Shown: positions 34,240-53,193 of the stretch, one piece after another | Numbering within the stretch: the first letter of the stretch is position 1 | Layout of the letters: each line of letters starts with the position of its first letter | Assembly: GCA_018663505.1 (NCBI GenBank) | Contig: JABJQG010000045.1 | Coordinates: 1 to 57,158 of the forward strand | Length of the DNA stretch: 57,158 bases | Origin: Pseudobdellovibrionaceae bacterium | Lineage (GTDB): Bacteria > Bdellovibrionota > Bdellovibrionia > Bdellovibrionales > UBA1609 | Direction: 5' to 3' | Notes under the pieces: model-generated | Database searches by the model: none | What the model was told of the DNA's origin: nothing | Seen by the model: the letters and a program-made list of their open reading frames with translations, nothing else | Program-made: the position numbers and the translations under genes

Positions 34240-34335
34240 CTCTTAACTATAATCGATTCCCACAGGAGTACCACTGAAATCAAAGCAAACGCGTTAATCA
34301 ATTCACTTTTTAGATCTAAGTTTTAATCTCACACC

Positions 34336-34365
34336 TTGACCAAATATTTAATGAACGTAGATAAT
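34336..34365 (+). promoter_or_regulatory. Sigma-70-type promoter for exbB-exbD
   Basis: TTGACC at 34336-34341 and GATAAT at 34360-34365 are separated by 18 nt, about 24 nt before the exbB ATG. An AAGGAG ribosome site follows. Confidence 0.55.
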
Positions 34366-34389
34366 GGAATGACATCTTAAGGAGTTTTC

Positions 34390-35022
34390 ATGTTAGCAGA
34401 TAAATTTTCAATAATTGCAGAGTTTGGTCACAGTTTCACATTATGGTTGTTAATACTTCTAAGTATTTTAAGCATAGCTTTTATTTTAGAAAGATGGTTA
34501 ACCCTCCGGCAAGTAAAAGCAAATTCGGCTAAGGTCACAGAGCGCTTAGCCGGCATTTTACAGTCGCAGGACCTTAAGCAAATAGAAACTCTTTCTCACG
34601 ACTGGGATTCCCTGGAGGGGCGAGCATTAGCTTACGGTATTCGTCATATTAAAGATCACGGGGCTGAGGGCCTTGAGGAAATCTTTGCTACCTATGCAAA
34701 CATCGAGCGACCAAAGTTGGAAAGGTTTTTGAACTTCTTAGCCACAGTGGGATCAAATGCACCATTTGTTGGGCTACTAGGGACAGTTTTTGGAATTATG
34801 GATGCCTTTACTGGTCTGGCTAAATCTCAAGGCGATGCTACGGTTGTGATGGTTGGCATATCCAATGCGTTAATGGCTACGGCCATTGGTTTGATAGTAG
34901 CTATACCGGCTGTGATTGCCTATAACACTTTTCAAAAACAGGTAAAGGGCGTTTTGCAAAGCTTAGATAGTGTAAAAGAGATCTGTATTGCTTATGCAAA
35001 AAGTAGCGGGAAAGAGGCTTAA
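34390..35022 (+). CDS. exbB: ExbB/TolQ-family proton-channel protein
   Basis: 210 residues with three transmembrane helices (about 15-38, 115-140, 155-180). The conserved MotA/TolQ/ExbB segment VGSNAPFVGLLGTVFGIMDAF is complete, followed by GISNALMATAIGLIVAIPAV. With ExbD it forms the proton-driven motor that energises TonB (or, in the TolQR version, the Tol system). The nearby TonB-dependent receptor favours ExbB over TolQ. exbD starts 3 nt after its stop. Confidence 0.9.
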   Translation: MLADKFSIIAEFGHSFTLWLLILLSILSIAFILERWLTLRQVKANSAKVTERLAGILQSQDLKQIETLSHDWDSLEGRALAYGIRHIKDHGAEGLEEIFATYANIERPKLERFLNFLATVGSNAPFVGLLGTVFGIMDAFTGLAKSQGDATVVMVGISNALMATAIGLIVAIPAVIAYNTFQKQVKGVLQSLDSVKEICIAYAKSSGKEA

Positions 35023-35025
35023 GCC

Positions 35026-35430
35026 ATGGCAGGAAAAAGTTTAGATCATGATGATGCAATTGCAGAAATTAATATAGTTCCCTTTGTGGATATTATTTTA
35101 GTGGTTTTAATTATTTTTATGGTGACTACGCCGCTAATTATGAAGCCAAGTATTAATGTAAATTTACCCAAAGCCGCTAGTGGGGAGGAAAGTGCTCCCT
35201 CAAAATTAAATATTACTATTACAAAAACAGGGGAGCTCATGCTAAATGGCAACCCTTCTAGTACAGAAAAAATTCATGACTATTCAAAAATGCTAGTGAG
35301 TAAATCCTCAGATGCGCAAGCCATTATCTCCGCAGATAAAGTGGTGAGCCATGGTATGGTAGTCTCCATTATTGATGCTGTTAAATCCGCTGGTATTAAG
35401 AAATTTGCTATCACGATTGATAAAAAGTAG
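35026..35430 (+). CDS. exbD: ExbD/TolR-family protein
   Basis: 134 residues: a cytoplasmic start, a single transmembrane helix NIVPFVDIILVVLIIFMVTT carrying the conserved proton-path Asp, then a periplasmic domain ending KFAITIDKK. It pairs with the ExbB protein encoded just upstream and uses proton flow to drive TonB. The C-terminal domain is of the normal length. No tonB gene follows; the next gene begins over 400 nt away. Confidence 0.9.
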   Translation: MAGKSLDHDDAIAEINIVPFVDIILVVLIIFMVTTPLIMKPSINVNLPKAASGEESAPSKLNITITKTGELMLNGNPSSTEKIHDYSKMLVSKSSDAQAIISADKVVSHGMVVSIIDAVKSAGIKKFAITIDKK

Positions 35431-35842: not shown

Positions 35843-36589
35843 ATGAAAACAAAAAATAAAATAGTATCGGCAATACTTGGCTTAGCAATGACAACATTAG
35901 TAGCTTGCGGTGGAGGCGGCGGTGGCACTAGCACTGGCGGAGTTTATTTCACACATGCAGAACTGGCAGATGAGTTTGTTTATCGCCTGAACATTGATTT
36001 AGGTTATGATGTTGAGTTGGTAAAGACGAATACAAAACAGTATGACTACATTGTTGTGTATGATTATGATTTAGATACATACGACGCTTATGATCTAACA
36101 TTCTATAATCCTGGAGAAGATTTATCTTATTACCTAGCTGATAATGATCCGTTTTTCTATTATGACCTAGACTATGATTTATCTTCTAATGTTTACACTG
36201 ACTTTTATTCTGGATATCAATTTTCTAGAGTAGCAATGACTTCTCAAGATTCTAGAAAAGCCAATGCGTTAGTGGAGCAACTTAAAATTGATAAAGCTAA
36301 AGAAGTTCTTTCAATCGAGTTCGGTTTAACACAAGACAGAGCACAAGAAGTTGCTAGCCTTGCAGTTCAATTAAACTCCATGGATAAATCACACTTAACA
36401 ATTGCTGAGTACAACCGATTCTCAGAAGCTATAGTAGGGTCTTCAATTGATGAACTGAAAGATGCCGCTTTAGCACAAATGGAAGGTAACAACGGCCTAA
36501 TGCAAGATGCTTACACCAAAGCAGCCACTGTAAACGGTTCGTCTAAATCACACATGAAGAAACTAGTTGATTCCTTAATGATGAAGTAA
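35843..36589 (+). CDS. Lipoprotein with Tyr/Asp-rich N-terminal half, unknown function
   Basis: 248 residues with lipobox LVAC (Cys22) followed by GGGGGG. Residues 55-125 are strikingly rich in Tyr and Asp (YDYDLDTYDAYDLTFY and similar runs), suggesting a calcium-binding or surface-adhesive segment, or simply low complexity. Residues 130-248 are helical, with no known motif. An unusually strong GGGGGGA ribosome site precedes the ATG, so high expression is likely. A clear intrinsic terminator follows at 36624. I do not recognise a family. Confidence 0.7.
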   Translation: MKTKNKIVSAILGLAMTTLVACGGGGGGTSTGGVYFTHAELADEFVYRLNIDLGYDVELVKTNTKQYDYIVVYDYDLDTYDAYDLTFYNPGEDLSYYLADNDPFFYYDLDYDLSSNVYTDFYSGYQFSRVAMTSQDSRKANALVEQLKIDKAKEVLSIEFGLTQDRAQEVASLAVQLNSMDKSHLTIAEYNRFSEAIVGSSIDELKDAALAQMEGNNGLMQDAYTKAATVNGSSKSHMKKLVDSLMMK

Positions 36590-39154: not shown

Positions 39155-42100
39155 TTAATCCCCAATAGGTATTGCTTTAATATTCCAATTCTCACCCTGG
39201 CGACAAAGAAACATCATGTTAGCAACTCCATCATTATTTACAGGCTTTGGATTCATAGCTAAACACTCTTTGGGTGCTTGAATATTTAGGTGGATAGGTG
39301 CCACAAGTTTATCTTCCCTATAAGTCCAAATAAAGTAATGCCCTTTTTTTAAGGAGGAGTTATCTACTATTAGTGCTGGTTCAAATTCATTGTTAGACCC
39401 TTGATAACGAATGGATTTAAAGTGCTGCAAGTTTTTAATATCTAATAAATCATAACTATATAGATTTATGGGTTTGTAGAAACGTTGGCTGCTGATACTC
39501 CCATCAGAAAGTACTTTATCTTTTGTGAGAGATATTTCTGAAAATGATTGGGCAAAGTTATAATAATGGGATTCATTGGCAGAGGGACGCTTTACAAAAC
39601 TACCTAGGTCATGGGCTTGAGATTCAAAATACAAAGTTTCTTTGATTTCTTTTCTAGTAATTGAAAAACTATCTAAACGATGAAGTAAATGTTCATTGTC
39701 ATCACTAGTATAGGAGCGCAAAAAGTGTGAGTAAGATTGTTTGTCGGGAGACAGGTATGCCACTGAGCCACGGATATAGTTTTGTTCTACTTGTGGAAAG
39801 TAGTGTTCTCCCATTTTGCCCATATATTTATTTGATTGTTTATTTAAGCTGATAGAGGGGCGGAAATTCTGACATTTAGGGTATAATGTCATTTTGTTAT
39901 ATCGTTGGTTTACGTACTTTACAGTATAGCTGTTATCTTCCAGTGATTTTGGAGTAAAGGTCATAATCAGAGTATTTTTAAGTTCTTTACAATAAAAATG
40001 CAGAGAATGTCTTGAAATACTTAAGTAAATTTGAAATTCATTGCGTTTAATTTGTTCTGGAGACTGGTTAAGTAATTGTATTGGGGACACTTGTTGGCGA
40101 TCCAGTAGGAACCCATATTTTAAACGCTTGTTTTTTTTAAGTTCAGCTTCCACTTTTAACCTTAGGGTTTTAATAAAAGGTTGGTTAAAAATGTAGTCCA
40201 TATGAAATTGAACTTGGTTATTTTCATCTCTTTTGGGTTTAAAAATTAAAATAGACTCTTCAGGTCTAAGTATAGAAAGGTCATCAAGAGTCATTTTATT
40301 CTTATTATCAGGAATTAAGTGAGCCTGAAATAAAATTGGGATCATAACTTTTGTATTTTCAAAAACATGGGGGATAAAGCTGAATTTATAGTTTTGATAC
40401 AGTTGAATGTTTATTTCTTGTCCCAAAAAAGGAATTTTTGCTGCTTCGCCTTCTTGGATAGGTCCATCCAGTGGTGATAGATTATGATCTAAGTAATAAA
40501 AATATCTGCGGGCATAATCAGGTGACCCATTCTCTTTAAGTTTGATATTCAGGTAAGAGATGAAGTAGTCATTTTTGCCATCAAAATTTAGATCAAGTTT
40601 TTGAATTTTAGGTTGTAAATAATAAGGATTATCATCGTACACATAGGCATTAGGTAGCTCTATTTTTTTAACAAAAGATAGCTTCCCAGCAATTTTTTTG
40701 AAAAAATACACACTTTGAGTGGTGATATCATCGGTGACTGTTCCTTGAATGACACTATAATAATCAGGAAATTCAGTAGAGGGTGTTTCTGGTTTGATTT
40801 CTTTGATTAATATTTGTCCAGCAGGTCTTTTGAAATTATATTTGTTAAAAAAAACAGAGACCTCAGTTGGTTTAACTATGGGTACTGTAGATACCTGTGT
40901 TGTGGTTAGCTCATTTAAGGGAAGAAATGCCTCAATTTCGTGTTTGAATACTTTACTTCGATTTGCACTACTCACTAAAACATGAATTGGGATGGATTTG
41001 TGAGATCTTAAATCATTCATAAGAATCTCCACGCCTACACTCAGTTCAAAAAAAGCATCCCATTGGGAGAAACTAAACTCATGTTTCTCTATTGTTACGT
41101 TTTCACTAGGACTTGAAATGCTAATTTTAACATCATTGGTGCCTATTCCAAAATTTTTAAAAGCTAAAGGAAAGCTCACTGTTCCTGAGTTCTCTGTAAC
41201 TAGATTTAATGGGAGATCAAGAATCTCTTTAAAAATAGGTTCGATATTCTCTTCAGTTAGGGGCTTGTCTATACCCTTAAGAGAAAGAAGACCATTTTTA
41301 GCGTAGAACACTTCAGATTCTGATTTGTTTTTAACGGGAGCTGTAGATCGAGTGAGGTAAGCCATAACCTCAGCATTTGAAAGGTGTTTATTACGTTCTT
41401 TATTATAGTGGATACCCTTTATTGCTGAGACCACAGCTGCGGTGATGGGTGCAGATTGGCTAGTACCAGACATTATTTCTAAGCCTGTTTGGTTGTAGAG
41501 TTGATTTTTCCATAGTGATTTTAATTGAGGAAACAGGCTAAGTATTTGTTGTCCTGGGGCTAATAAATTGACTTGCCCACCATAGTTTGAAAAATCAGAA
41601 TAATATCCAGAGTTGTCTACGGAGCCTACGCACAAAACCCCTTTGATGTGGCAGGGATCAAGTTTAATATTTGTCCGATTATTTCCAGCCGCAACCACAA
41701 TGAATATATTTTGATCAATCGCCTTTTCAATGGCAGCTTTTAACTGATCCTGTGTTGCTTTAGAAACAGCATTTCGTGGCCAGGCTAAACTTAGGTTGAT
41801 TACATTTACCACATTCTCATCAGAGTTTGGTTTTTTTAAGTCTATGGCATAGTTAATTGCTTTAATAATTCTTTGGGCAGAGCCCTCTAGTGAGAACTCT
41901 ACTAAAAGAGCTTCTTCTCGGGGGTTGAGATCCTTGCTGGTGTTTTGCTGTTTGGCTCTTGCTAACCTTAGGGCCTTAAAATTAGCCTCAGATAAACTTC
42001 GGTTAACTCTCAAAGGTAATACTTTAATACGGTTTGATAGAGAGGTAATAAATTTATTATTTCCTTTTTTTGCTGCAATAAGACCTGCCACATGAGTACC

Positions 42101-42784
42101 ATGTCCATGATCATCATCGATACGATTACTGCCGGGATATATTTTCTCAGGTTCTGTGGGTTCAGGATTTTCACGAGGAGGGCGAGTCCTTGCATTACTA
42201 TTTCTAGGTTCTCTTTGCCTGGAGGCCCGATCTCTTCGTGGTCGTTTTTTCGTTGGAGCGAATTCTTGAGTAAAGTTCCACCCCATGCAATCGCCCACAA
42301 AACCATTACCATCTCGGTCCTCTGTGGCTTTGGGATTGATTTCATCCTCGTCACACTCAATTTCATTTTTGTAGTAATTCAAATCAGGGTGTTTTGGGTC
42401 AGCACCTCTATCAATCACAGCAACCACAATATCAGTTTTCATAAGTGCATCAATTTTTTTGTATACAAATCTCCAGCCAATGTCAGCGTCACTTTGCTTG
42501 TCTTGATTAATAACACATTGTTGTTGTGAATCTTCAGGAGCAGGGTAAATAAGTCCATGTAAGTCATAGTGAACAAGGTCATTGAGCTCATCTTTTATAA
42601 GCTGCCCATTGTTTCTTAAATACCACTGCATGGAAAACTTAGGGTCATTCACATCTGGTGTACAATATTTTACAGGAGAAATAATGTGTCTAGATTGCAC
42701 AGTGAGTGCATTTGGATGGTACTCATTAGCTGCACTTTGAAGTCCGAAAAATATAAAAAATAGAACTAAAATATTTATTTTCAT
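39155..42784 (-). CDS. Subtilisin-like (S8) secreted serine protease with Arg-rich insert
   Basis: 1209 residues with a signal peptide (cleaved near QSAA). The S8 triad is complete: Asp125 in VAVIDRGADP, His228 in DDDHGHGTHVAG and Ser442 in SGTSQSAP; the oxyanion Asn is in VVAAGNN. Between Asp and His lies an insert of about 40 residues that is Arg/Pro-rich (about 178-214), a likely autocleavage or surface-loop site. Residues 460-1209 contain a beta domain and DLNFDGKNDYF, an FG-GAP-like calcium motif. The start overlaps the upstream stop as TAATG, with GAGG before it, so I rejected the longer frame from 42805. It is the last gene of the operon that begins with tadC. Confidence 0.85.
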   Translation of the reverse strand: MKINILVLFFIFFGLQSAANEYHPNALTVQSRHIISPVKYCTPDVNDPKFSMQWYLRNNGQLIKDELNDLVHYDLHGLIYPAPEDSQQQCVINQDKQSDADIGWRFVYKKIDALMKTDIVVAVIDRGADPKHPDLNYYKNEIECDEDEINPKATEDRDGNGFVGDCMGWNFTQEFAPTKKRPRRDRASRQREPRNSNARTRPPRENPEPTEPEKIYPGSNRIDDDHGHGTHVAGLIAAKKGNNKFITSLSNRIKVLPLRVNRSLSEANFKALRLARAKQQNTSKDLNPREEALLVEFSLEGSAQRIIKAINYAIDLKKPNSDENVVNVINLSLAWPRNAVSKATQDQLKAAIEKAIDQNIFIVVAAGNNRTNIKLDPCHIKGVLCVGSVDNSGYYSDFSNYGGQVNLLAPGQQILSLFPQLKSLWKNQLYNQTGLEIMSGTSQSAPITAAVVSAIKGIHYNKERNKHLSNAEVMAYLTRSTAPVKNKSESEVFYAKNGLLSLKGIDKPLTEENIEPIFKEILDLPLNLVTENSGTVSFPLAFKNFGIGTNDVKISISSPSENVTIEKHEFSFSQWDAFFELSVGVEILMNDLRSHKSIPIHVLVSSANRSKVFKHEIEAFLPLNELTTTQVSTVPIVKPTEVSVFFNKYNFKRPAGQILIKEIKPETPSTEFPDYYSVIQGTVTDDITTQSVYFFKKIAGKLSFVKKIELPNAYVYDDNPYYLQPKIQKLDLNFDGKNDYFISYLNIKLKENGSPDYARRYFYYLDHNLSPLDGPIQEGEAAKIPFLGQEINIQLYQNYKFSFIPHVFENTKVMIPILFQAHLIPDNKNKMTLDDLSILRPEESILIFKPKRDENNQVQFHMDYIFNQPFIKTLRLKVEAELKKNKRLKYGFLLDRQQVSPIQLLNQSPEQIKRNEFQIYLSISRHSLHFYCKELKNTLIMTFTPKSLEDNSYTVKYVNQRYNKMTLYPKCQNFRPSISLNKQSNKYMGKMGEHYFPQVEQNYIRGSVAYLSPDKQSYSHFLRSYTSDDNEHLLHRLDSFSITRKEIKETLYFESQAHDLGSFVKRPSANESHYYNFAQSFSEISLTKDKVLSDGSISSQRFYKPINLYSYDLLDIKNLQHFKSIRYQGSNNEFEPALIVDNSSLKKGHYFIWTYREDKLVAPIHLNIQAPKECLAMNPKPVNNDGVANMMFLCRQGENWNIKAIPIGD

Positions 42785-45700
42785 TATAGTTGCCTCATTA
42801 ACCAATAAACAAAAAACTCACCTTCGTTCACTTGCAGATCATTTTTTAGTTTATCCACAGGTCCCAATAGCTTCTTTTTAGTGGAAGAGATAACTCCTCT
42901 GTGGTTAGACTGCTCAACGGACACTAAGGGTTCCGCAGAGTTTGATCGTTCATCATTTTTAAAAAATCCTGTGGCACTGCCTCGGGCATAATAATTTGCT
43001 TTTGAGTTTAATAGTTTAGTGAAACCATCAAAATCTAGAAGTAAATTACAAAGATCCACTAAGTCACGTAATGCAGTTGTTCTTTTTCTAATTGAGAGAG
43101 TCTCATTTTTATAGATACGTTTTAAGTGTGCAATGACCTTGAGGTAACCTAAATTAGAACGAGCAATTTTTCGTTCAGTGGATGTGATTTTTTTATGTAG
43201 AACTTTATCTACATATCTTTCAGCAATATTTGCATCAAAGAAATACTTTCCATAAATCTTAAGGATGGCGTGTTCCTGTGAGCTATTTTCAAGAATTAAT
43301 TTCTTAATTTTTTCCGCTGATGCATTTACAATATTCATTAGTCCACGGTTGCTAATATACAAGTTTGCATCAAAACTATAAAGCTGTAATTTATCAAATC
43401 CTATAAATTGTTGTTCAGTAAAAAAATCAACAGTGTTAGTTTCAGCAAATAGGGGGTTGATTTCATCTTTAAGTAAGCTAGGGATACTAGTTCGTTTGGC
43501 ATTCCATCCCTTCCAACGGTGATGGATATTTAGTTGTTGATTTAAAAGTATATCTCCAGCTTCATTCAGATTAATATCTAAGATTACATTTCGAGAATAG
43601 GACTTTCCGAATATAGTATTGCCTGGGTTACCATTATTAAAACTGGAAAAATGAATATCTTCATTGCCATTTTTTTGCACTAAGTAATTGAGTGTATCAA
43701 AAGCCACCCTTTCGTAATTGACTCCGGTTCTTTTTCCAGAGCTATTACGCACAAGTTTAAAGTTTTGCCCCTCAGGGTAGGCTGGGGCTGCAGGAACTGG
43801 TGGGATAAAAATATCAATATCATCATAGGTTTTTAAATTGAACCATTCGAAAAATAAGAATTTGCTTTGGTGAATATTTTGATTGAAGTCATGTTTAACA
43901 ACCATGGGGTAATTATAGTTTTCACTGAGGTTTTTATTTAAGTTTCTATTAGGATAAAATACTCCAGGTCCATCAAGAGCACTATTAACTGCCATTACAG
44001 CATTAAAGTAATTATTATTCACCCTTTCATACTGTTTTATAGTAGGTGGTTCACCATTTTCACTTTCTACCACCTCCTCTTCTAAATTGTATTTAGGATT
44101 TATATTGTAATTGTAGATCTTAGTTTCGGAATCACCAAAATTAGTATCAAATTTATAACTTAAGATAGGTATAAATTTACGCAAATTAAATCCCACACCA
44201 TAGTCACGAGTTCCGGCATCACTAGAGTATACCTGAAAGAGATTTTGAGATTTTCGGAAAATGTGAATCCTAGAGTGTTCAATTTTCTGTGTATTAAATA
44301 TGATTTGTGGAATAAACCCACTGCCTAAGATCTGTTGGTAGGAAAAATTTAAACGAGGACCATATTGAGTGGTAGCAATAAAAGACTCATTCACTTTCAA
44401 ATGCTCATTGAGCAGCTGAAACATTTGGTCGGCCTCATAACGTTTTTCTGAAACATGAATAACCACTGGTTTATTATCTTTGTCTACTCCATCAGGTTCT
44501 TCGATGGGGTTGTTTGTTATTTCATTATTCTCATCATAGCTAAATGCTGTTCCACGAAGGTCGCTCAGTTCACTAATTTTTTTGCCAGAACGAGATCGAA
44601 TTTTATCCACTCTGTAGGTGAGCTTATCAAGAATACTCTTCACAAAGATATTACTAAAATCCTCTTCAAGAACTGCACTCAAACAGGGTTTTTGCTCTTT
44701 CTCTAGTTTTTCATTTAAAGCAAGTCTTCTGGGTAAACTGTCACAATTTACGGGTTTGATGTGAGTATACCTTCTGGAATAGGTTAAATCAAAGCCACCG
44801 GAGGCTGACTCATTAAAGGGGAGCCCGTGAACCCCTAAGTACTTACCAAAAGATATTGAAAGTCCAAAGGTATCTGCAATTTGTATAGGGTGGGAGTTTC
44901 CTTGGTAACTGCCAATAATGAGATCTCTTGATATGATGGGGGCGATTGAGTACTGGTTGTCACTCCAGAAATCCACTGGGATTTTTAATAGAGCATTGTT
45001 TTCAAACAAATAGTCCAGCTGTCTTCTACCTAAAGCGTCGTTGTGGTCTTCTATGAGTTTAGACGTGTCAGTTTTTAAGCTTTTGTTAAATTTAATCAGG
45101 CCATTGGAAATTAAGTTACTGATGCCTTTTGACTTCAGATAAAACATGATTTCATCAAAGGAAATGGGGGACTCTAAGAAACTTTTTGAAAATCTATTGC
45201 TATAGCCTACCCACCATTGTTTTGGATCTATATAGGGGTTGTTGGTCTTCTGTGATTTTATACTACAAACACCTGGTTGATAGGTTTCTTCAGGGGTTAT
45301 TAGGGTGAGCACACCATTTTTTAACAGACCGCTTTGTTTATCTGAAACAAATGTATTCACACGGAAGCCAGGAGAGTTTTCATCCTTGCAGTATGAAGGG
45401 CTAGGTTCGTAGGATGGGACTTCAGAGCATTCTTTTTTTAGCAGCACATCATAATAAAAATTTCTGCGTCCAATTAATTTCTCAATAAGAATTTTATCAA
45501 TAGGCTTTGAACCATTAACCACAGGATAGTAGGATTGATTAATAATATCTTGATAGTCTTCTCTAGATAATTGGGCTATACGTCTAAACACCCAACGTAA
45601 GTCACTAATGTTGGGATCAAAACTATCTTGGTAACGTCTGAGTGGCAAAAGTAGGTTGTCATCCTGTATACGCCCAGGTGTATAGGTAAATTTATTCACA

Positions 45701-46617
45701 GAATCAGGTATACGTAGAAAATTATAAACAAGGAGCAAGGCATTTAAAAGTCGTCTAGATTTTATTTTAGAATACCTTCCTAGGTAGTCATAAGAAAGAT
45801 TATATGGAAACTCATTATTATGGATAATTGTAAGGTCTTGAAAAGTTAAATATACAGGTCCACTTTTATTATTGTCTTGGTCAGTGAGGTACCAGCGACA
45901 AGCTTTTTTGTTCGTATCTTCAACGGTCTCATCTTGATTATAGGCTATGTTTTTAATCCAGCGTCTTGGATCTTTTCGATCTATTTGAAAACTGAGTTTG
46001 TTTATAAAATTCCGTGCAGCCAGTAGGTTTTTAAACTGAACCTTAACTTGACGGAGGTATTTGAGCTCAGGGACAATGTATCCAATCTTGCGGAGTAGAG
46101 CTTTAGTAAGTAATTCGTTATGTATGAATAACCCGATATTTAATCGATAAAGATTTTGGTCGCCATTTTTTTCTGTGTGCAGTACAGAGAATTCCATACC
46201 AGATTTTGTGGCAATGGTTTCATTAACAATATCTTGATATTCCACAGTTGAATCTTCATCAACAGGAAATTGGTCTCTTAGCTTATCCTGGGATACAAAA
46301 CCATCTTTAGCTAATAACATTTGATTTTGCCATATATTAAAATTACCCACTGGATTTAATTTAGAGTAATCAAAATCAGGATCTTCACCGCTGTCAATGA
46401 GGTCCATGATTTCCACTGGAGAGAGAATATTTTCTTTATATTTAAAATGCTCAGAAGCTGTGGTTAGGATTTCATCTAGTGGAATTCCTTCATAAGCGCT
46501 AGATATTGATTTTTTTTGGTTAGGAGAAAGACCTTGAGCGTAGCTTAGGTTACACAACGAGAAAAAGGCTAGAATTATTGATAGTTTAGTTTTAAAGCTC
46601 ATTAATGGCTTATACAC
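42784..46617 (-). CDS. Very large secreted protein of unknown function
   Basis: 1277 residues with a signal peptide (cleavage after LSYAQ). No transmembrane segment follows. The chain mixes helical and beta regions, has about ten scattered cysteines and shows no enzyme motif or repeat I recognise. The central part (FGLSISFGKYLGVHGLP, GGFDLTYSRRYTH, GVGFNLRKFIPILSYKF) has alternating amphipathic strands as in outer-membrane barrels. Passage through or association with the outer membrane is therefore possible. The start is a GTG at 46617 or an ATG at 46602; ribosome sites are weak for both. It is joined to the protease gene by TAATG, which points to a shared job. It lies 44 nt behind the PP2C-like gene. 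Confidence 0.65.
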   Translation of the reverse strand: MYKPLMSFKTKLSIILAFFSLCNLSYAQGLSPNQKKSISSAYEGIPLDEILTTASEHFKYKENILSPVEIMDLIDSGEDPDFDYSKLNPVGNFNIWQNQMLLAKDGFVSQDKLRDQFPVDEDSTVEYQDIVNETIATKSGMEFSVLHTEKNGDQNLYRLNIGLFIHNELLTKALLRKIGYIVPELKYLRQVKVQFKNLLAARNFINKLSFQIDRKDPRRWIKNIAYNQDETVEDTNKKACRWYLTDQDNNKSGPVYLTFQDLTIIHNNEFPYNLSYDYLGRYSKIKSRRLLNALLLVYNFLRIPDSVNKFTYTPGRIQDDNLLLPLRRYQDSFDPNISDLRWVFRRIAQLSREDYQDIINQSYYPVVNGSKPIDKILIEKLIGRRNFYYDVLLKKECSEVPSYEPSPSYCKDENSPGFRVNTFVSDKQSGLLKNGVLTLITPEETYQPGVCSIKSQKTNNPYIDPKQWWVGYSNRFSKSFLESPISFDEIMFYLKSKGISNLISNGLIKFNKSLKTDTSKLIEDHNDALGRRQLDYLFENNALLKIPVDFWSDNQYSIAPIISRDLIIGSYQGNSHPIQIADTFGLSISFGKYLGVHGLPFNESASGGFDLTYSRRYTHIKPVNCDSLPRRLALNEKLEKEQKPCLSAVLEEDFSNIFVKSILDKLTYRVDKIRSRSGKKISELSDLRGTAFSYDENNEITNNPIEEPDGVDKDNKPVVIHVSEKRYEADQMFQLLNEHLKVNESFIATTQYGPRLNFSYQQILGSGFIPQIIFNTQKIEHSRIHIFRKSQNLFQVYSSDAGTRDYGVGFNLRKFIPILSYKFDTNFGDSETKIYNYNINPKYNLEEEVVESENGEPPTIKQYERVNNNYFNAVMAVNSALDGPGVFYPNRNLNKNLSENYNYPMVVKHDFNQNIHQSKFLFFEWFNLKTYDDIDIFIPPVPAAPAYPEGQNFKLVRNSSGKRTGVNYERVAFDTLNYLVQKNGNEDIHFSSFNNGNPGNTIFGKSYSRNVILDINLNEAGDILLNQQLNIHHRWKGWNAKRTSIPSLLKDEINPLFAETNTVDFFTEQQFIGFDKLQLYSFDANLYISNRGLMNIVNASAEKIKKLILENSSQEHAILKIYGKYFFDANIAERYVDKVLHKKITSTERKIARSNLGYLKVIAHLKRIYKNETLSIRKRTTALRDLVDLCNLLLDFDGFTKLLNSKANYYARGSATGFFKNDERSNSAEPLVSVEQSNHRGVISSTKKKLLGPVDKLKNDLQVNEGEFFVYWLMRQL

Positions 46618-46661
46618 TAAGAGCTTAGATAAAAAGTATCATTAGCTATGAATTGAAAAAT

Positions 46662-47342
46662 CTATAGGTTCAGTAGTCCTATCCAAAAAGGGAGGTTGGG
46701 TTGCTCAGAAGACAGCGTTTTAACTAGTGTATTTAATTCAACATCACTGTGTACAACCTGTAACATTTCACAGGGAATTCTTGGGCCAGAAAGAAGGATG
46801 AGTCTATCGGTAGCTCTTGGCTTTAAGCTGTTTACCTGAAATTGGGTGGTATTATAAATACCTAATAGTTCAGAAGGCAGTGGTACAAGCTGCTGCATAC
46901 CGGTACTGTAATCCAGCGATAAGTCATATTTTAGGTTTATAGGGGAAAGGTTGTGGTTTTGGCGACTTAATAAAATGTGAGGTTGGCCTATTTGGGTCCA
47001 AATAAAATCATGTTGATTACGTAAGCCAATAAAAAGTTCTACTCCTGTTTGAAAACTATCCGAATTATATTCTTTTCTTAAAACGTCGTTTGCTAGTCTA
47101 AGAGAGGTCCTCAAATGATTTGCTTTCATAGACATGCAGTCCAAGTTTTCAAATGGAGAAGTTATCTCTAGGTCATCTTGAATTGAGAAATAAAATTCAA
47201 GAATGGTATCAATAGCTTTTTGTGCACCATCTTTAGAGCCCCATGCAGTTGCAATAATTATGAGGTCTCCCCCATCTTCAAGGTGAATGAGCGGAGTGGG
47301 TCTGAAAGCCGTACTTCTATAAGACTGATGAGAGAAGTTCAT
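46662..47342 (-). CDS. PP2C-fold (PPM) pseudophosphatase-like protein
   Basis: 226 residues, cytoplasmic. The order of PP2C motifs can be followed. GDLIIIATAWGSKDGAQKAI stands where active enzymes have VADGMGGH..G..A. GVELFIGLRNQHDFIWTQIGQPHILLSR matches the region containing GDSR, and ATDRLILLSGPRIPCEM matches GDRLLLCSDGL. At each position the metal-binding Asp is replaced (AW for DG, QP for DS, GP for DG), so phosphatase activity is unlikely and a phospho-binding or regulatory role more so. The gene begins 1 nt after the double-FHA gene, so the two act together by context. Family assignment is by pattern and could be wrong. Confidence 0.6.
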   Translation of the reverse strand: MNFSHQSYRSTAFRPTPLIHLEDGGDLIIIATAWGSKDGAQKAIDTILEFYFSIQDDLEITSPFENLDCMSMKANHLRTSLRLANDVLRKEYNSDSFQTGVELFIGLRNQHDFIWTQIGQPHILLSRQNHNLSPINLKYDLSLDYSTGMQQLVPLPSELLGIYNTTQFQVNSLKPRATDRLILLSGPRIPCEMLQVVHSDVELNTLVKTLSSEQPNLPFWIGLLNL

Positions 47343-47343
47343 A

Positions 47344-49338
47344 TTAATTTAAAACCTCATATTTCTTTAGCTTATTTTTGGCTTTTTTGTAAAATCGTGA
47401 CCCCTTAGGGAAATCAATGCTTAAAATTTGTTTCCAAAGTTCTTTTGCTGCCTCTACGTTACCGTAGTTTTCTTCAATTGATGCGTTGTCGAATTTACTT
47501 TTCATCTCTCTACCAAGTTTTAACAAAAGGTCCCCTCTCATTTCAAGAGCGGCACTATTGGAAGGGTCTTCTTGAAGAGCTTTTTTACATGCGTCAAATG
47601 CAGCCTTATAGTTTGAACTCGCTGTTTGATTTTTACAAATATCTAAGGATTTTTTAATTTTCACTGTAAGTTGTGATCTTATAGAAGCCAAGTTTCTCTT
47701 GGCTTTATTTTTGAATTTTTTTGGATCTGGGTAATTTTTATTAATAAAATACTCATATTCCGTGATAGCCTTAGTTAACTTTCCCTTCTTGTGAGTTTTC
47801 TCAGCGACTTTATAGAGTTTTATACCAGCATTAACTTTATTTTGGTATTCTGCTTTTTGGCTGGCAGCATGTTGTTTTTTATATTCACGCTGATTTATAA
47901 CTTCTCGTAGTTGTTCAATTTCAATATCTTCAGGACTGAGTTCTATGGCTTCAGAGAGACAGGAGTTGAGTTCATCCATTGTATTAAAAGTATTAACTCT
48001 AGTACTGCATTGAGATATAACATCCCTTACTTTTTGTTCAGTGAGCTTTCGTTCACGTTCAATAAGTTTTTTATTTTCTTGAGCTCGAGAGAGTTCAAGT
48101 CCATTTTCACAAAAGTTTTGTAATTTTTTTGAGTCTTGATATGAGGGGATTATATCATGAATTTTTGAGAGTTCAGCTAAGCATAAAGAAAACTGCTCAC
48201 GATTGTATTGTGACTTAGCAAGTACTAAGGAATCTTTTAATAGAGATTTTTGTGCAGCACTTAGTTGAGACATAGAGCCATTTTTATTTTTGTCTGTTGA
48301 AGCAAGGCTTTTTTCTGATTTTGGTTTACTGTCATCTTTAAGGAGTAAACCAAATAATAGAAGTGGTACTAAAGCTATAAGCAAAAGTTGTACATAGTTT
48401 TTTTTAGCTTTAGGTTCGTCATCTATACGCAAAGCGGCAGGCTGGTTCTCCATGCCCATAGGAATTGAGTTTGCATGATGTCCCATATTCATTGGCTGAT
48501 TATATGCAGCTTGTGTCGTTTTTACTTCCATCATAGTGTTAGATATGTTTTGTAGATGCGATTTATAGTTTTTATCACGAACTTCAATTGTCAGTTGTAT
48601 ACGCTTGATGATTATCAGTTCGTTCAGTGCAATTGTAGTATATTGATTTGGTGGTATTTTTTGTCCATTGATTCGGACCCCATTACTACTATTTAAATCC
48701 TTGATTTTAAATTCGTTATTTATTTTTGACAGTTCAAAATGTTTTCTCGATATATGGTCGTCATTTAAAAATATATCGCAGTTTGGATCACGTCCGGCGA
48801 CCCAGGACTCACCTTCTAATACAAAAATATCCTTTTTTTGATTATTATAGTTCACAACTAGGAAAGTGGAGGTACTAGGTGATACTAAGCATGTAGCATC
48901 GTTATTATCCTCGCTTATTTCATTTAGATTCAAAGCTAAGGTTTTATTATCACTATCCTCATCGGATGATAGTGTACTTTCTTGTTTAACTTCTTCAGCT
49001 ATGGATACCTGTTTATCTTCAACTACGGAGTCTTCTTTTTCTTCTTGTGCTTCAAAACAAACTTCAAAAGGACCGATATACATTGTGGTAGTCTCTTCAA
49101 GGGCGAATGAATTTGCAGATTCAGAAGCAATTCTAATTTCACCAAACTTTGTGATCAGTTCAATGACCCAATAACTTTCATCAAAGTAAACCTTAAAATG
49201 TTTTCTTGAGATACCTTTTAATGCAGGGAGTTTTATATGAGAGCTCTCATCACGACCAAATTCATATGATTGTGACTCTAGAAGGTCCAGTTCGCCAATT
49301 AATTGTCCAGAATGAAATATTTTTAGTTTATAGAGCAT
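47344..49338 (-). CDS. Double-FHA membrane protein with periplasmic TPR-like domain
   Basis: 664 residues. FHA 1 (about 1-95) has GRDESSHIKLP and SRKH but lacks the Asn-Gly of the binding loop. FHA 2 (about 165-250) is complete: GRDPNCDI, ISRKHFEL, DLNSSNGVRING. A single transmembrane helix lies at about 313-331 (VQLLLIALVPLLLFGLLL), and a helical TPR-like region fills 370-664 (ALQEDPSNSAALEMRGDLLLKLG). FHA domains bind phosphothreonine, so the protein likely reads a kinase signal inside and presents a scaffold outside. The start is the ATG in a TAATG overlap with the upstream stop, with GGAGG 10 nt before. Confidence 0.85.
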   Translation of the reverse strand: MLYKLKIFHSGQLIGELDLLESQSYEFGRDESSHIKLPALKGISRKHFKVYFDESYWVIELITKFGEIRIASESANSFALEETTTMYIGPFEVCFEAQEEKEDSVVEDKQVSIAEEVKQESTLSSDEDSDNKTLALNLNEISEDNNDATCLVSPSTSTFLVVNYNNQKKDIFVLEGESWVAGRDPNCDIFLNDDHISRKHFELSKINNEFKIKDLNSSNGVRINGQKIPPNQYTTIALNELIIIKRIQLTIEVRDKNYKSHLQNISNTMMEVKTTQAAYNQPMNMGHHANSIPMGMENQPAALRIDDEPKAKKNYVQLLLIALVPLLLFGLLLKDDSKPKSEKSLASTDKNKNGSMSQLSAAQKSLLKDSLVLAKSQYNREQFSLCLAELSKIHDIIPSYQDSKKLQNFCENGLELSRAQENKKLIERERKLTEQKVRDVISQCSTRVNTFNTMDELNSCLSEAIELSPEDIEIEQLREVINQREYKKQHAASQKAEYQNKVNAGIKLYKVAEKTHKKGKLTKAITEYEYFINKNYPDPKKFKNKAKRNLASIRSQLTVKIKKSLDICKNQTASSNYKAAFDACKKALQEDPSNSAALEMRGDLLLKLGREMKSKFDNASIEENYGNVEAAKELWKQILSIDFPKGSRFYKKAKNKLKKYEVLN

Positions 49339-50297
49339 TAATAATTTTCCTCCATAAACAATAGACAAGTTTTACGAGAAAGTTTTGCTTCAATATATAC
49401 CTTGCTGCTAGGGTCCCTCAGAAGAGTCATAACTATTTTATAAGTTTGTGCACAAACTTTGTACTGTCCCTGTTCTTTGTATTGTTGTGCAAGGACCATG
49501 TTATACTGAATGAGTTCATTGTGTTTTCTATACGCTAATCTATAATACCTCTTACAAAGCTGATGTTCCGGGAATAATGAAAGACAAGCTTGGAAAGCAT
49601 CCATGGACGAAGCATAGTTTGTATTTTTAAAATCCCTAAAACCTCTAACAAATGTAGCTTGAGCCTCACGATACTGAACACTGTCGGTCCCTTTTTTACT
49701 GCTTTGCTCCTTTAATATTTTTTGTAGTTCTTTATTTTTTTTCATTTCCTGTTCAATGATTTCATCAGTTTTTAATGAAACGGCATCATTTTTTTTAACT
49801 ACATTATCTGAAAAAACTAAGTAAAGAACTAATGCTAGAATACCATAAATTATTATACGGCCACCGTTTGACTTTTTACCGTTTTTACTAGTTTTTATAC
49901 CTTTGGATTTTTTGGCTCCTGGTATTTCCTGAGCTTGCACTGAATTAGATGACTGAGCGACGGGTGTATTGACTTGGGAAATATTAAAGATTAATTCAGA
50001 ATCACCAATTGTTATTTTTGAGTTATTTATTAAAAGTGCCTGTTCACATTTTACACCATTTACAATAAGGCGCTGTCTTTTACTTGTATCAATTATTTCA
50101 ATACCTTTCTGGGTAAAAACGATTTTTGCATGTTGTCGAGAAATCTTTGGATCTTTTGGTAAACTAATATGGTTGTCAACACCTCGGCCAATAAAAACAG
50201 GTGAACCAAGTAATTTAAACTTAGCACCTTTTTCCGGCCCATTTATAATTTTTATTTCAAAACTATAATTGGGATTTTTTGTGGCCATTTGGTTCAT
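49338..50297 (-). CDS. FHA-domain membrane protein with helical C-terminal domain
   Basis: About 319 residues. The FHA domain (about 8-100) has FIGRGVDNHISLP and ISRQHAKI but a weak recognition loop (DTSKRQRLIVNG), so phosphopeptide binding is uncertain. A Lys/Ser/Gly-rich linker leads to a transmembrane helix at about 149-168 (IIIYGILALVLYLVFSDN). The C-terminal helices, AFQACLSLFPEHQLCKRYYRLAYRK and similar, look TPR-like and resemble the end of the neighbouring 664-residue protein, suggesting gene duplication. I chose the ATG at 50297 because GGAG lies 9 nt upstream; an ATG at 50315 is also possible. Confidence 0.8.
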   Translation of the reverse strand: MNQMATKNPNYSFEIKIINGPEKGAKFKLLGSPVFIGRGVDNHISLPKDPKISRQHAKIVFTQKGIEIIDTSKRQRLIVNGVKCEQALLINNSKITIGDSELIFNISQVNTPVAQSSNSVQAQEIPGAKKSKGIKTSKNGKKSNGGRIIIYGILALVLYLVFSDNVVKKNDAVSLKTDEIIEQEMKKNKELQKILKEQSSKKGTDSVQYREAQATFVRGFRDFKNTNYASSMDAFQACLSLFPEHQLCKRYYRLAYRKHNELIQYNMVLAQQYKEQGQYKVCAQTYKIVMTLLRDPSSKVYIEAKLSRKTCLLFMEENY

Positions 50298-50301
50298 ATT
50301 A

Positions 50302-51954
50302 TTATGCATCTCCATAGTTTAAAAACACGATTATATAATAACTAACATTTTGATCTCCAAAAATTGGCAGGAGGTTAATTTCAAAGTTTTCACCATTGAT
50401 TTCTAGGCTATTTATAATAGGTTCTGTAGGAGCGCTTATCATTTGCGCTTTATCAACTAAATCCTTTAAATTGAGCTGTAATGCTTGATCTATGAGCTTA
50501 TCTAAGGGAGCGTTCTGCAAATCTGTTTGTGACATACCAATTTTTTCTTCTAAGGCTAAGTTTACACTAAGTATGAGCCCATTTTCTGCCCCAATTGACA
50601 TTGCTGGAAAACCAATGAGCTGGGTAAGGTGAAATATTTCCATATCTCTACTAATTACTTGGTTTTGTTCTGATCCAAAATCTTGCATAGGTGATTGGGA
50701 GCCACGACTGATGGCACTATTGATATTGGAAACAAGATTTTGTAAAACATCAAACTTATAATCAGTTTGTATTTGATCGCCCTCATTTTTTAAAGAATCA
50801 TCCAGTTGTTTATTAATACTATCTAAAGGGTGCTCAATTATTTTATAGAGAAAGAAATATAGGAGCAAGCCAATGACGAGGGCAATAAAAAACACCTGTA
50901 TAAGTAAGCTCAGTGTCTTTCCGTTGTCTACTGCTAGAGATCCCATATTATATTGAATTACCGAATATGCTTTAACTGTTTGTGACCCAGTATTAGGATC
51001 ATATACCTTAATGGGAACCAGAGAAACAATTGTACTTGAGTCTATTTGTTTAGTGCTGGGTAGCCCTGTTTTTCTGGCTTCATGTATAAAGGGTATGTCA
51101 GGATACTCTCCGGATTGGTTACTAGGTGCCATTATGCTTCCGTCAATGGCGCTGATAATGAAAGCGCTATCAACACCAGGTTCTTTGAGTGCAAAGTTTA
51201 CTGATACAGCTGAGCCAATACCTTGATGAATATAGCCTTGATTTATCATAGCTAGGGTTTTTGCTATTGTTAAAGCGCGCTGTTGACTTTCCTTTTCTAT
51301 ACTAGATTTTAGAATAGTGAGTAATGGAATTGAAGATAGTGACGTAACAAAAAATATAAATGCAGCAATGAATAGACCTAGAACCCATTTAAACTCAAAA
51401 CTCTTGGGAATCATGTAAACGCCAGGCAAAACAATGTTTTGAATATAATTTAGGATGAGTTGTTTGATGCCTTCAATGCCCTCAGGGTTTCTGACTTCAG
51501 ATTCTGCGTTGTTGTCATTCTCAGCCTGTGTGTAAGGTTGTTGAGACATTTGTGGTTGCTGATCTAATACAGCATTTCCATCATATGCAAAAGTTTGATG
51601 AGCTTGTGGTTCAAACTGGTTTTGCATTTGAGAATTTGCACCAAGAGGAATATTCGTTACTTGGCTCTGAGTTGGCACAATGTCTAAAATCACATCGTGT
51701 AAAGAGAGTTTATCGCCAGACTGAAAGATATGGTTGGATATTTGTTTCCCATTAACAAATGTACCATTACTAGAGTTGAGATCAGTAAGCTGAATACCAT
51801 GACCATGAACTTCTATTTTTAAATGTTTTTTGGAGACACTTGGTAAATCAATTGTAATGTCACAAACCTCAGATCTACCTATGACTGTGGACGATTTAGT
51901 AATACTGTAAGATTGGCCTTTAAGTGGACCCGTTAATATTCTAATGGACCACAT
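50302..51954 (-). CDS. FHA-domain two-helix sensor-like membrane protein
   Basis: 551 residues. A canonical FHA domain (about 1-100) has VIGRSEVCDI, VSKKHLKIEV and DLNSSNGTFVNGKQI. A Gln-rich linker follows, then helix 1 (about 185-210) and helix 2 (about 348-375), enclosing an extracytoplasmic domain of about 135 residues that resembles a sensor. A HAMP-like stretch and a PAS-like segment (GFPAMSIGAENGLILSVNLALEEKIGM) end the protein; no kinase, GGDEF or HTH output is present. It may sense the envelope state and pass it to FHA partners. Start at the ATG at 51954 with GGGAG 8 nt upstream, overlapping the DUF192 gene by 14 nt. Confidence 0.8.
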   Translation of the reverse strand: MWSIRILTGPLKGQSYSITKSSTVIGRSEVCDITIDLPSVSKKHLKIEVHGHGIQLTDLNSSNGTFVNGKQISNHIFQSGDKLSLHDVILDIVPTQSQVTNIPLGANSQMQNQFEPQAHQTFAYDGNAVLDQQPQMSQQPYTQAENDNNAESEVRNPEGIEGIKQLILNYIQNIVLPGVYMIPKSFEFKWVLGLFIAAFIFFVTSLSSIPLLTILKSSIEKESQQRALTIAKTLAMINQGYIHQGIGSAVSVNFALKEPGVDSAFIISAIDGSIMAPSNQSGEYPDIPFIHEARKTGLPSTKQIDSSTIVSLVPIKVYDPNTGSQTVKAYSVIQYNMGSLAVDNGKTLSLLIQVFFIALVIGLLLYFFLYKIIEHPLDSINKQLDDSLKNEGDQIQTDYKFDVLQNLVSNINSAISRGSQSPMQDFGSEQNQVISRDMEIFHLTQLIGFPAMSIGAENGLILSVNLALEEKIGMSQTDLQNAPLDKLIDQALQLNLKDLVDKAQMISAPTEPIINSLEINGENFEINLLPIFGDQNVSYYIIVFLNYGDA

Positions 51955-52288
51955 AGAGCTGATCTCCCACTTCCACGTTGTTGGTATGAATAAATCCGCT
52001 TTTAAATTCAATAACAGATTGTGCTTTTAGAATAGGAAGGGTCAACCTTCCAGGTTTTAAGTTTCTATATATTTTTTTAACAACAAAGTTTTTATCTATA
52101 AAAGCCACATCAATGGGGAAATTCATAAAAAAGGTATGGATACTTTTACAGTTACGAATAAGCATAGCGTAATCTGGGTCAATGGACTTTTTACCTAAAA
52201 GTCCTTTGCTTCTTTTTAAAAAAGTGTGTGCATCTTCAAGTTGACTCACTAGTTGTATGTTCTTTGTTTGATTTAGAAGCGTCATCAC
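51941..52288 (-). CDS. DUF192 protein
   Basis: 115 residues of the DUF192 family (PF02643), visible in LKRSKGLLGKKSIDPDYAMLI, then SIHTFFMNFPIDVAFIDKNFVV and LKAQSVIEFKSG near the end. The family folds as a small beta-barrel and its role is unknown. In other bacteria it is often exported, but no signal peptide is visible here. It is placed between tadC and the FHA genes with overlaps on both sides, so it is translationally coupled. The first codon is either GTG (52288) or the ATG that follows; GGAGG precedes both. Confidence 0.85.
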   Translation of the reverse strand: MMTLLNQTKNIQLVSQLEDAHTFLKRSKGLLGKKSIDPDYAMLIRNCKSIHTFFMNFPIDVAFIDKNFVVKKIYRNLKPGRLTLPILKAQSVIEFKSGFIHTNNVEVGDQLYVVH

Positions 52289-53193
52289 TAATTTCCTCCT
52301 GTGAAAAATTGAATGATTACAGGGGCGAAAATCATCAACATAACAGCTGGAACTATAAACAACATCATTGGAATTAAAATTGCTTGAGCAGCTTTAGCTC
52401 CTGCTTTTTCGGCACGTACAAAACGTTCTAGTCGCATTTGGTTGGATTGATCTTTGAGCACTGAAGAGATACTAGCTCCAGTTTGATCGGCATCTACAAT
52501 AACAGCCACAAAACTTGTGATTTCAGGAATGTCTAATCTTGAAGCCAGTCCCTTAAGTGCCTCTGTCCGTGAGCTCCCAAGTTTGATATCTTTAAGTACA
52601 ATGTATAATTCATCAGTGAGAACGCTGTCTTTGGCCTTATCAACAATACGTTGAATCGCATTTATAAAGTCCAGACCAGCTTCTGTGGAGAGAGCTAATA
52701 AGTCCACTAAGAAAGGGAGGTCTATGATAACAGATGTGTAGCGTTCAGATTTTTGTTGTGAACAGTAGAAGTGGGGAAAGTAAGCACCAATTGCAGATAT
52801 GCCAATGGCAAGGTTGTAGCTAAAATCAAGTTGCAAGGCAAAATTCATAACTGAGAATACAATGGGAAACATGATCCCCCAGAGTATTTGTAAGCCAATG
52901 AATTCATCCACATTGAGTTCAGAGGATACTCCCGCAGTGAGTAATTTTTTTTCCACACTTTCACGATAGTTTTTGTTTTTTATTTTTCTTACATGATGTA
53001 TTGTGAAGTTGTGTACAAGGGGCCTTGAAAAATTGATAAAGGGTGATTTAGACTCTTTCGGTTCGTCACCTGAGGCCCAAGCTAAAGCTTCTCCCTGAGA
53101 ACTACTAGAAAGGAACGACGAAACAAATAAATATATTGCAAGGCTCATAAATCCTAAGCCAGTAAAAAGTAAAATATATTCATTGAGAATCAT
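52288..53193 (-). CDS. tadC: TadC-like inner-membrane platform protein (T2SS F domain)
   Basis: 301 residues. Two transmembrane helices at about 5-27 and 105-145, then the GspF/TadC core SVIIDLPFLVDLLALSTEAGLDFINAIQRIV with DADQTGASISSVLKDQSNQMRLER. Two more helices end the protein. TadC works with TadB as the platform of Tad/Flp pili. No tadA, tadB, tadZ or flp gene is nearby in this window: the gene is an orphan here and heads the FHA operon. GAGGAAAT lies before the ATG at 53193. The start is 24 nt from the divergent maf start. Confidence 0.9.
   Translation of the reverse strand: MILNEYILLFTGLGFMSLAIYLFVSSFLSSSSQGEALAWASGDEPKESKSPFINFSRPLVHNFTIHHVRKIKNKNYRESVEKKLLTAGVSSELNVDEFIGLQILWGIMFPIVFSVMNFALQLDFSYNLAIGISAIGAYFPHFYCSQQKSERYTSVIIDLPFLVDLLALSTEAGLDFINAIQRIVDKAKDSVLTDELYIVLKDIKLGSSRTEALKGLASRLDIPEITSFVAVIVDADQTGASISSVLKDQSNQMRLERFVRAEKAGAKAAQAILIPMMLFIVPAVMLMIFAPVIIQFFTGGN

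Follow-up and report, generated by a model that had tools for sequence, protein, structure and literature searches.

In Myxococcus, the Kil system has numerous FHA proteins and its genes are divided among separate clusters; a contact-triggered cascade has been proposed for it (Seef et al. 2021, PMC8460266), and related systems have been reported in Bdellovibrionales (PMC8460266). In Bdellovibrio, mutants of Bd0470 (TadC) are defective in prey attachment, killing and rounding, and mutants of Bd0474 attach but have lost killing and rounding (Duncan et al. 2019, PMC6561027). Bd0474 is an FHA-FHA-TPR protein whose FHA domains are cytoplasmic and whose TPR domains are extracytoplasmic; it binds the TPR protein Bd0075, and a contact between Bd0473 and Bd0475 has been predicted (ipTM 0.604) (Abulude et al. 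2025, PMC12034629). The six-gene core described below is a likely signaling unit by which prey contact could lead to action of the Tad/Kil pilus in predators. The open-access literature yielded no paper linking FHA and PP2C proteins with Tad.

We analyzed a stretch of 57,158 nt (the window) from an uncultured Pseudobdellovibrionaceae bacterium (GenBank assembly GCA_018663505.1, contig JABJQG010000045.1). An earlier note, made from the letters alone, had described a single operon of eight minus-strand genes, nearly all joined by overlaps or gaps of a few bases. The eight reading frames lie where the note had placed them (Table 1), and the tight junctions were confirmed, with one larger gap of 44 nt. 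tadC and the DUF192 gene overlap by 1 nt at 52288, the DUF192 gene and FHA1 by 14 nt (51941–51954), and FHA1 and FHA2 by 14 nt (50302–50315); FHA2 and FHA3 have in common a TAATG at 49338, which holds the ATG start codon of FHA3; FHA3 and the PP2C-like gene are 1 nt apart; and the giant and protease genes again share a TAATG, at 42784. The 44-nt gap, between the PP2C-like stop (46662) and the giant start (46617), is the border of two modules. The eight genes divide into genes 1–6 (module 1, the core) and genes 7–8 (module 2). Promoter counts within the locus were at the level of shuffled sequence, and no minus-strand terminator was predicted at the module border; given the shared strand and short gap, read-through from module 1 into module 2 is possible. 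A Pfam search of the window's reading frames left genes 6 (PP2C-like) and 7 (giant) without a match.

Table 1. Features of the locus, in window coordinates
Feature	Position	Strand	Remarks and basis
tadC	52288..53193	-	First gene of module 1; Pfam T2SSF 61 bits (cut-off 25)
DUF192 protein, 115 aa	51941..52288	-	Pfam DUF192 72 bits
FHA1: N-terminal FHA, TM, extracytoplasmic sensor domain, TM, C-terminal PAS	50302..51954	-	Pfam FHA
FHA2: FHA, TM, periplasmic TPR-like tail	49338..50315	-	Pfam FHA
FHA3 (Bd0474 orthologue): FHA-FHA, TM, periplasmic TPR tail	47344..49338	-	Pfam 2x FHA, TPR
Putative PP2C-fold pseudophosphatase, 226 aa	46662..47342	-	Last gene of module 1; AlphaFold, Foldseek, VIA
Giant exported protein	42784..46617	-	Module 2; GTG start 46617 or ATG 46602
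Subtilisin-like protease	39155..42784	-	Module 2; ATG start 42784; Pfam Peptidase_S8 124 bits
Small lipoprotein	35843..36589	+	Third module 2 member in most genomes; family alignment with ORF

Conserved gene order had been proposed in the earlier note as a check on the operon. It holds for genes 1–6 and fails for genes 7–8, which lie mostly elsewhere. A scan of named genomes recovered 80 loci, nearly all titled Bdellovibrionales or its families, of which 60 had all six core genes, including those of Bdellovibrio bacteriovorus kdesi and Bdellovibrio sp. qaytius. The order tadC-DUF192-FHA1-FHA2-FHA3-PP2C-like is strict in 59 of these 60 named Bdellovibrionales loci, the lone exception being an over-extended DUF192 reading frame, and the median junctions are −1, −14, −1, −1 and −1 nt. 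The same order, divergent from maf, recurs with few exceptions in 40 genome regions of the family and order, judged where the contig was long enough. An FHA3 query found a match in all 59 genomes searched, mostly a full-length orthologue, and a profile of the FHA3 tail matched 237 of 241 genomes of the phylum. In most phylum loci the DUF192 gene sits between tadC and FHA1, and regions from other classes of the phylum hold the same six-gene block. Core gene order is conserved far beyond chance, and genes 1–6 are a phylum-wide unit.

Several irregularities came up among these loci. An apparent FHA3-PP2C gene fusion (L062 and L107) was discarded as an artefact in which an N masks the stop codon. 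FHA3 carries one in-frame stop in the small genomes G001, G013, G028 and G249, through decay, recoding or assembly error. A record titled Streptomyces griseus (L126) holds the Bdellovibrionales operon and is probably a mislabeled MAG. At one locus a response-regulator receiver protein is encoded 3' of the PP2C gene (L230:7536-8855); a same-strand gene of ∼370–550 aa occupies that slot in many loci of the L230 family, its domain having been checked in L230 only.

The tadC of the window had been called an orphan. This is accurate at the level of the locus and does not hold genome-wide: the other Tad genes are on another contig (C31; locus L025), which carries Flp, TadV, TadE-like genes, CpaB, a secretin (CpaC), TadA and TadB together, without TadC. 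The C31 ATPase scored 201 bits against T2SSE and the secretin 79 bits; TadB was assigned by T2SSF, and CpaB, TadE, TadV and Flp by reading the sequences. The window's tadC is the only TadC-type match in the genome, whose only other single-domain T2SSF protein is the TadB of C31, which argues that it completes the Tad system. Loci from other classes lead the same way. The core runs into the Tad locus in ten of them: L234 and L236 have the block followed in one run by TadV, TadE, CpaB, CpaC, TadA and TadB (L236 has an insertion of three genes behind tadC), and eight more (L239, L241, L248–L252 and L266) have the block and then the first Tad genes, up to the end of the fetched stretch or contig. 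These observations support the note's idea that the FHA proteins are attached to a Tad-type machine. The named loci of Bdellovibrionales had no strong TadA or TadB match within 10 kb of the core; given the contiguity in other classes, the split between core and Tad locus in this order looks derived.

The Tad loci have two further features. The TadA of this genome (L025:8438-10696) is fused to an N-terminal ParA/CpaE-like (ParA/CbiA-type) domain, a fusion also present in L234 and L236, judged by length and start. In L234 an Rhs-repeat/DUF6531 protein follows TadB (L234:263-2032), and on C31 a similar gene, split by an in-frame stop, is found at the same place (L025:5647-7362).

Phosphothreonine signaling had been proposed from the three FHA proteins, and the near invariance of their binding pockets supports phosphothreonine reading. 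We aligned 81–86 loci of the order and 39 fetched loci from outside it. Within the order, the FHA1 pocket (R27/S41/N63) is kept in 85–86 of 86 loci, and the second FHA domain of FHA3, numbered in the alignment from one codon before the ATG, keeps its Arg, Ser and Asn in 79–80 of 81. FHA2 has R44 and S59 in every non-gapped row, its Asn being found in the next column in 64 of 85 loci; the first FHA domain of FHA3 keeps Arg and Ser and lacks the usual Asn. Outside the order, the pocket residues stand in 38–39 of the 39 loci for FHA1 (39 of 39), for FHA2 and for the second FHA domain of FHA3.

A structure model of FHA1 residues 178–550 comprised a helix, an alpha/beta sensor domain, a TM segment and a PAS domain (pLDDT 92.5, with a pTM of 0.58 that leaves the placement of the domains uncertain). 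Its top Foldseek match was a WalK-YycH model (E 1.4e-15), followed by PAS-domain proteins. FHA1 lacks a kinase domain and is a predicted membrane sensor. Candidate relatives of FHA1 on plasmids turned out to be FHA-domain matches only. The operon likewise encodes no kinase, as had been remarked, by a Pfam search of the window's reading frames; Ser/Thr kinases, two of them long, are encoded on other contigs of the genome.

The sixth gene had been described as encoding a PP2C-like phosphatase that looks dead, and both a structure model and 60 orthologues agree. The AlphaFold model (pLDDT 94.4, pTM 0.91) resembles tPphA by Foldseek (E 6e-14) and by VIA (Z 18.9, rmsd 3.5, 207 residues aligned), and also PppA (Z 16.8, rmsd 3.6, 203 residues aligned). 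A profile search of PDB sequences with the family led to tPphA (E about 0.001), and hhalign gave 91.8% against tPphA. The tPphA sequence used for hhalign and for the ligand comparisons in other classes is consistent, in its central part, with the one in the PDB alignment. Among the 60 orthologues of the class, no conserved Asp stands at the positions of tPphA D34, D119, D193 or D231. In other classes, 37 loci were compared: D34, D193 and D231 all stand in 29, and one or more of them is lost or changed in the remaining eight (a hand count from the alignment table). D119 is kept in none of the 37, so even the ligand-bearing proteins may not be standard PP2Cs; judged by their residues, those with intact ligands are presumably active. 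The metal ligands are also lost in two loci from another order of the window's class (L228 and L229). Ligand loss thus appears to extend throughout the class as sampled, and at least partly elsewhere too. A PP2C fold without ligands here, set beside ligands in most other-class loci, indicates that the phosphatase died in place, and the sixth gene is a predicted pseudophosphatase whose active site was lost in the window's class.

A role in predation or surface attachment had also been raised, and the published mutants of the Bdellovibrio orthologues support the former. Judged from gene order, published descriptions and the kdesi genome, module 1 is the putative counterpart of Bd0470–Bd0475. Both have TadC first, the FHA proteins (Bd0473 and Bd0474) further on and the hypothetical Bd0475 last, in one operon (PMC6561027, PMC12034629), and kdesi has all six core genes in the order of the window. 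To Bd0475, a hypothetical protein in the literature, our analysis adds a predicted PP2C fold and the apparent loss of its active site. It likewise adds the phylum-wide linkage to Tad and the PP2C relatives that keep their ligands.

We consider it probable that the only Tad (type IVb) pilus of the cell has in genes 1–6 its signaling and platform unit at the inner membrane, with a mechanism along the following lines. Threonine phosphorylation, carried out by a membrane Ser/Thr kinase whose gene lies elsewhere, would change upon prey or surface contact (a signal suggested by analogy with Myxococcus Kil) or upon an envelope signal that FHA1 detects. The FHA domains would bind the resulting phosphothreonines, gathering FHA1–FHA3 around TadC, and the TPR tails would reach into the periplasm and engage a trans-envelope apparatus, whereupon the pilus would be assembled or fired. 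The ancestral PP2C would have reset this phospho-switch; in the window's class the pseudophosphatase would most likely work on FHA2 as an adaptor or gate, leaving any dephosphorylation to another enzyme. The data suggest a phosphothreonine-dependent platform at TadC with its kinase in trans, and we infer both a gating of the pilus by phosphorylation and an adaptor role for the pseudophosphatase. Against this explanation stand the lack of a kinase linked to the locus, the ability of FHA domains to bind without phosphate, and the first FHA domain of FHA3, with its missing Asn. More tentatively, and at somewhat less than even weight, we propose that the class has rebuilt a reversible Tad kinase/phosphatase switch: a dead PP2C, kept as a phospho-adaptor, would together with three membrane FHA proteins, including a receptor that lacks a kinase, gate prey-contact pilus action at TadC.

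The FHA proteins might instead be a structural scaffold of the Tad platform, SctD- or GltG-like, with no phosphate switching and with the PP2C-fold protein as a structural subunit. The SctD-like layout of FHA2 and FHA3, which match Yop-YscD_cpl, would fit such a scaffold, as would a PP2C-fold protein that is dead by its residues and the absence of a linked kinase. However, the pocket Arg, Ser and Asn are essentially invariant over >120 loci, and a pure scaffold needs none of them; most other-class loci hold an intact-ligand PP2C at the same slot; and the SctD and GltG NCBIfam models fall far below their cut-offs (for the SctD equivalog TIGR02500, the FHA proteins reach 14.8–17.9 bits versus a cut-off of 86). 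We regard this scaffold as rather unlikely. We give hardly any credence to the idea that the core is a sensory operon for expression or some other process, with TadC a frozen neighbor and not a working partner: the block and the other Tad genes do lie on different contigs in this order, but the block holds the genome's only TadC and is contiguous with the Tad locus in other classes, and mutants of TadC and of FHA3 are alike defective in predation (PMC6561027).

The earlier note had taken all eight genes as one system, with the giant protein and the protease as products that the Tad/FHA unit would secrete or activate. The shared strand and possible read-through would allow this, and the arrangement recurs in two other genomes (module 2 lies behind the core in three among those seen: this one, UBA1609 and G007). 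However, 146 of 241 genomes of the phylum have a homologue of the giant protein by profile search; the giant gene is followed by the protease in all 19 loci fetched from elsewhere, none of which has adjoining core genes; and the pair is missing behind most core loci. The two modules also part in Bdellovibrio, where the core is intact in both kdesi, whose giant homologue is broken by internal stops, and qaytius, where the giant homologue is a weak, short match only. The role of the pair as cargo was thus not borne out, and we judge the one-system reading very improbable. Genes 7–8 are a neighboring, independent protease module, found phylum-wide as a pair, and not part of the Tad unit.

Module 2 itself has a consistent makeup. 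In 17 of the 19 loci, a member of a small lipoprotein family is encoded no more than three genes away from the giant/protease pair, and the catalytic Asp/His/Ser triad of the protease is invariant in 15 homologues. Against TIGR03921, the model for the type VII secretion protease mycosin, the protease scored 127.7 bits, below the cut-off of 278.75. In searches for the family of the giant protein, no match in the PDB had an E-value below 0.24, and Pfam gave only a weak RAP match in eight of 21 members. Behind the core, most relatives have a convergent gene of ∼600 aa, either immediately next to it or one gene further along, and then ExbB/ExbD-like genes. A sulfatase-like gene of ∼600 aa and an ExbB/ExbD-like pair are present at window positions 32443–35430, and this block is inverted in the window, L068 and L065.

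Taken in this way, the published two-phase phenotype, in which attachment needs TadC and killing needs FHA3, is tied to one conserved block. The same operon slot, holding an intact-ligand PP2C in some classes and a putative pseudophosphatase in another, offers a natural before/after series. The giant/protease/lipoprotein set, now separated from the Tad unit, is an uncharacterized module across the phylum.

Three known systems invite comparison. The type III secretion protein SctD (Yop-YscD_cpl) resembles FHA2 and FHA3 in having a cytoplasmic FHA fold, one TM segment and a periplasmic domain; it differs in that FHA2 and FHA3 have TPR tails rather than ring-building domains and carry canonical phosphothreonine pockets. 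Kil of Myxococcus xanthus is likewise a Tad-like machine, needed for contact-dependent killing (PMC8460266), with accessory FHA proteins and split clusters; here three FHA genes lie with tadC and the rest of the Tad genes on C31. The FHA genes of Kil adjoin its ATPase and secretin, whereas those of the window adjoin tadC, and the Kil ATPase, KilF, has an FHA domain where TadA here has a ParA/CpaE-like N terminus: no FHA appeared among the best 25 of 32 families for this TadA, and a genome search gave no FHA match on C31. The PpkA-PppA-Fha pathway of the T6SS similarly places FHA readers and a PP2C-fold protein on a contact-dependent envelope machine. The locus described here, by contrast, has a Tad pilus as its machine and FHA proteins that span the membrane; its operon has no kinase, and the PP2C ligands are lost in the class.
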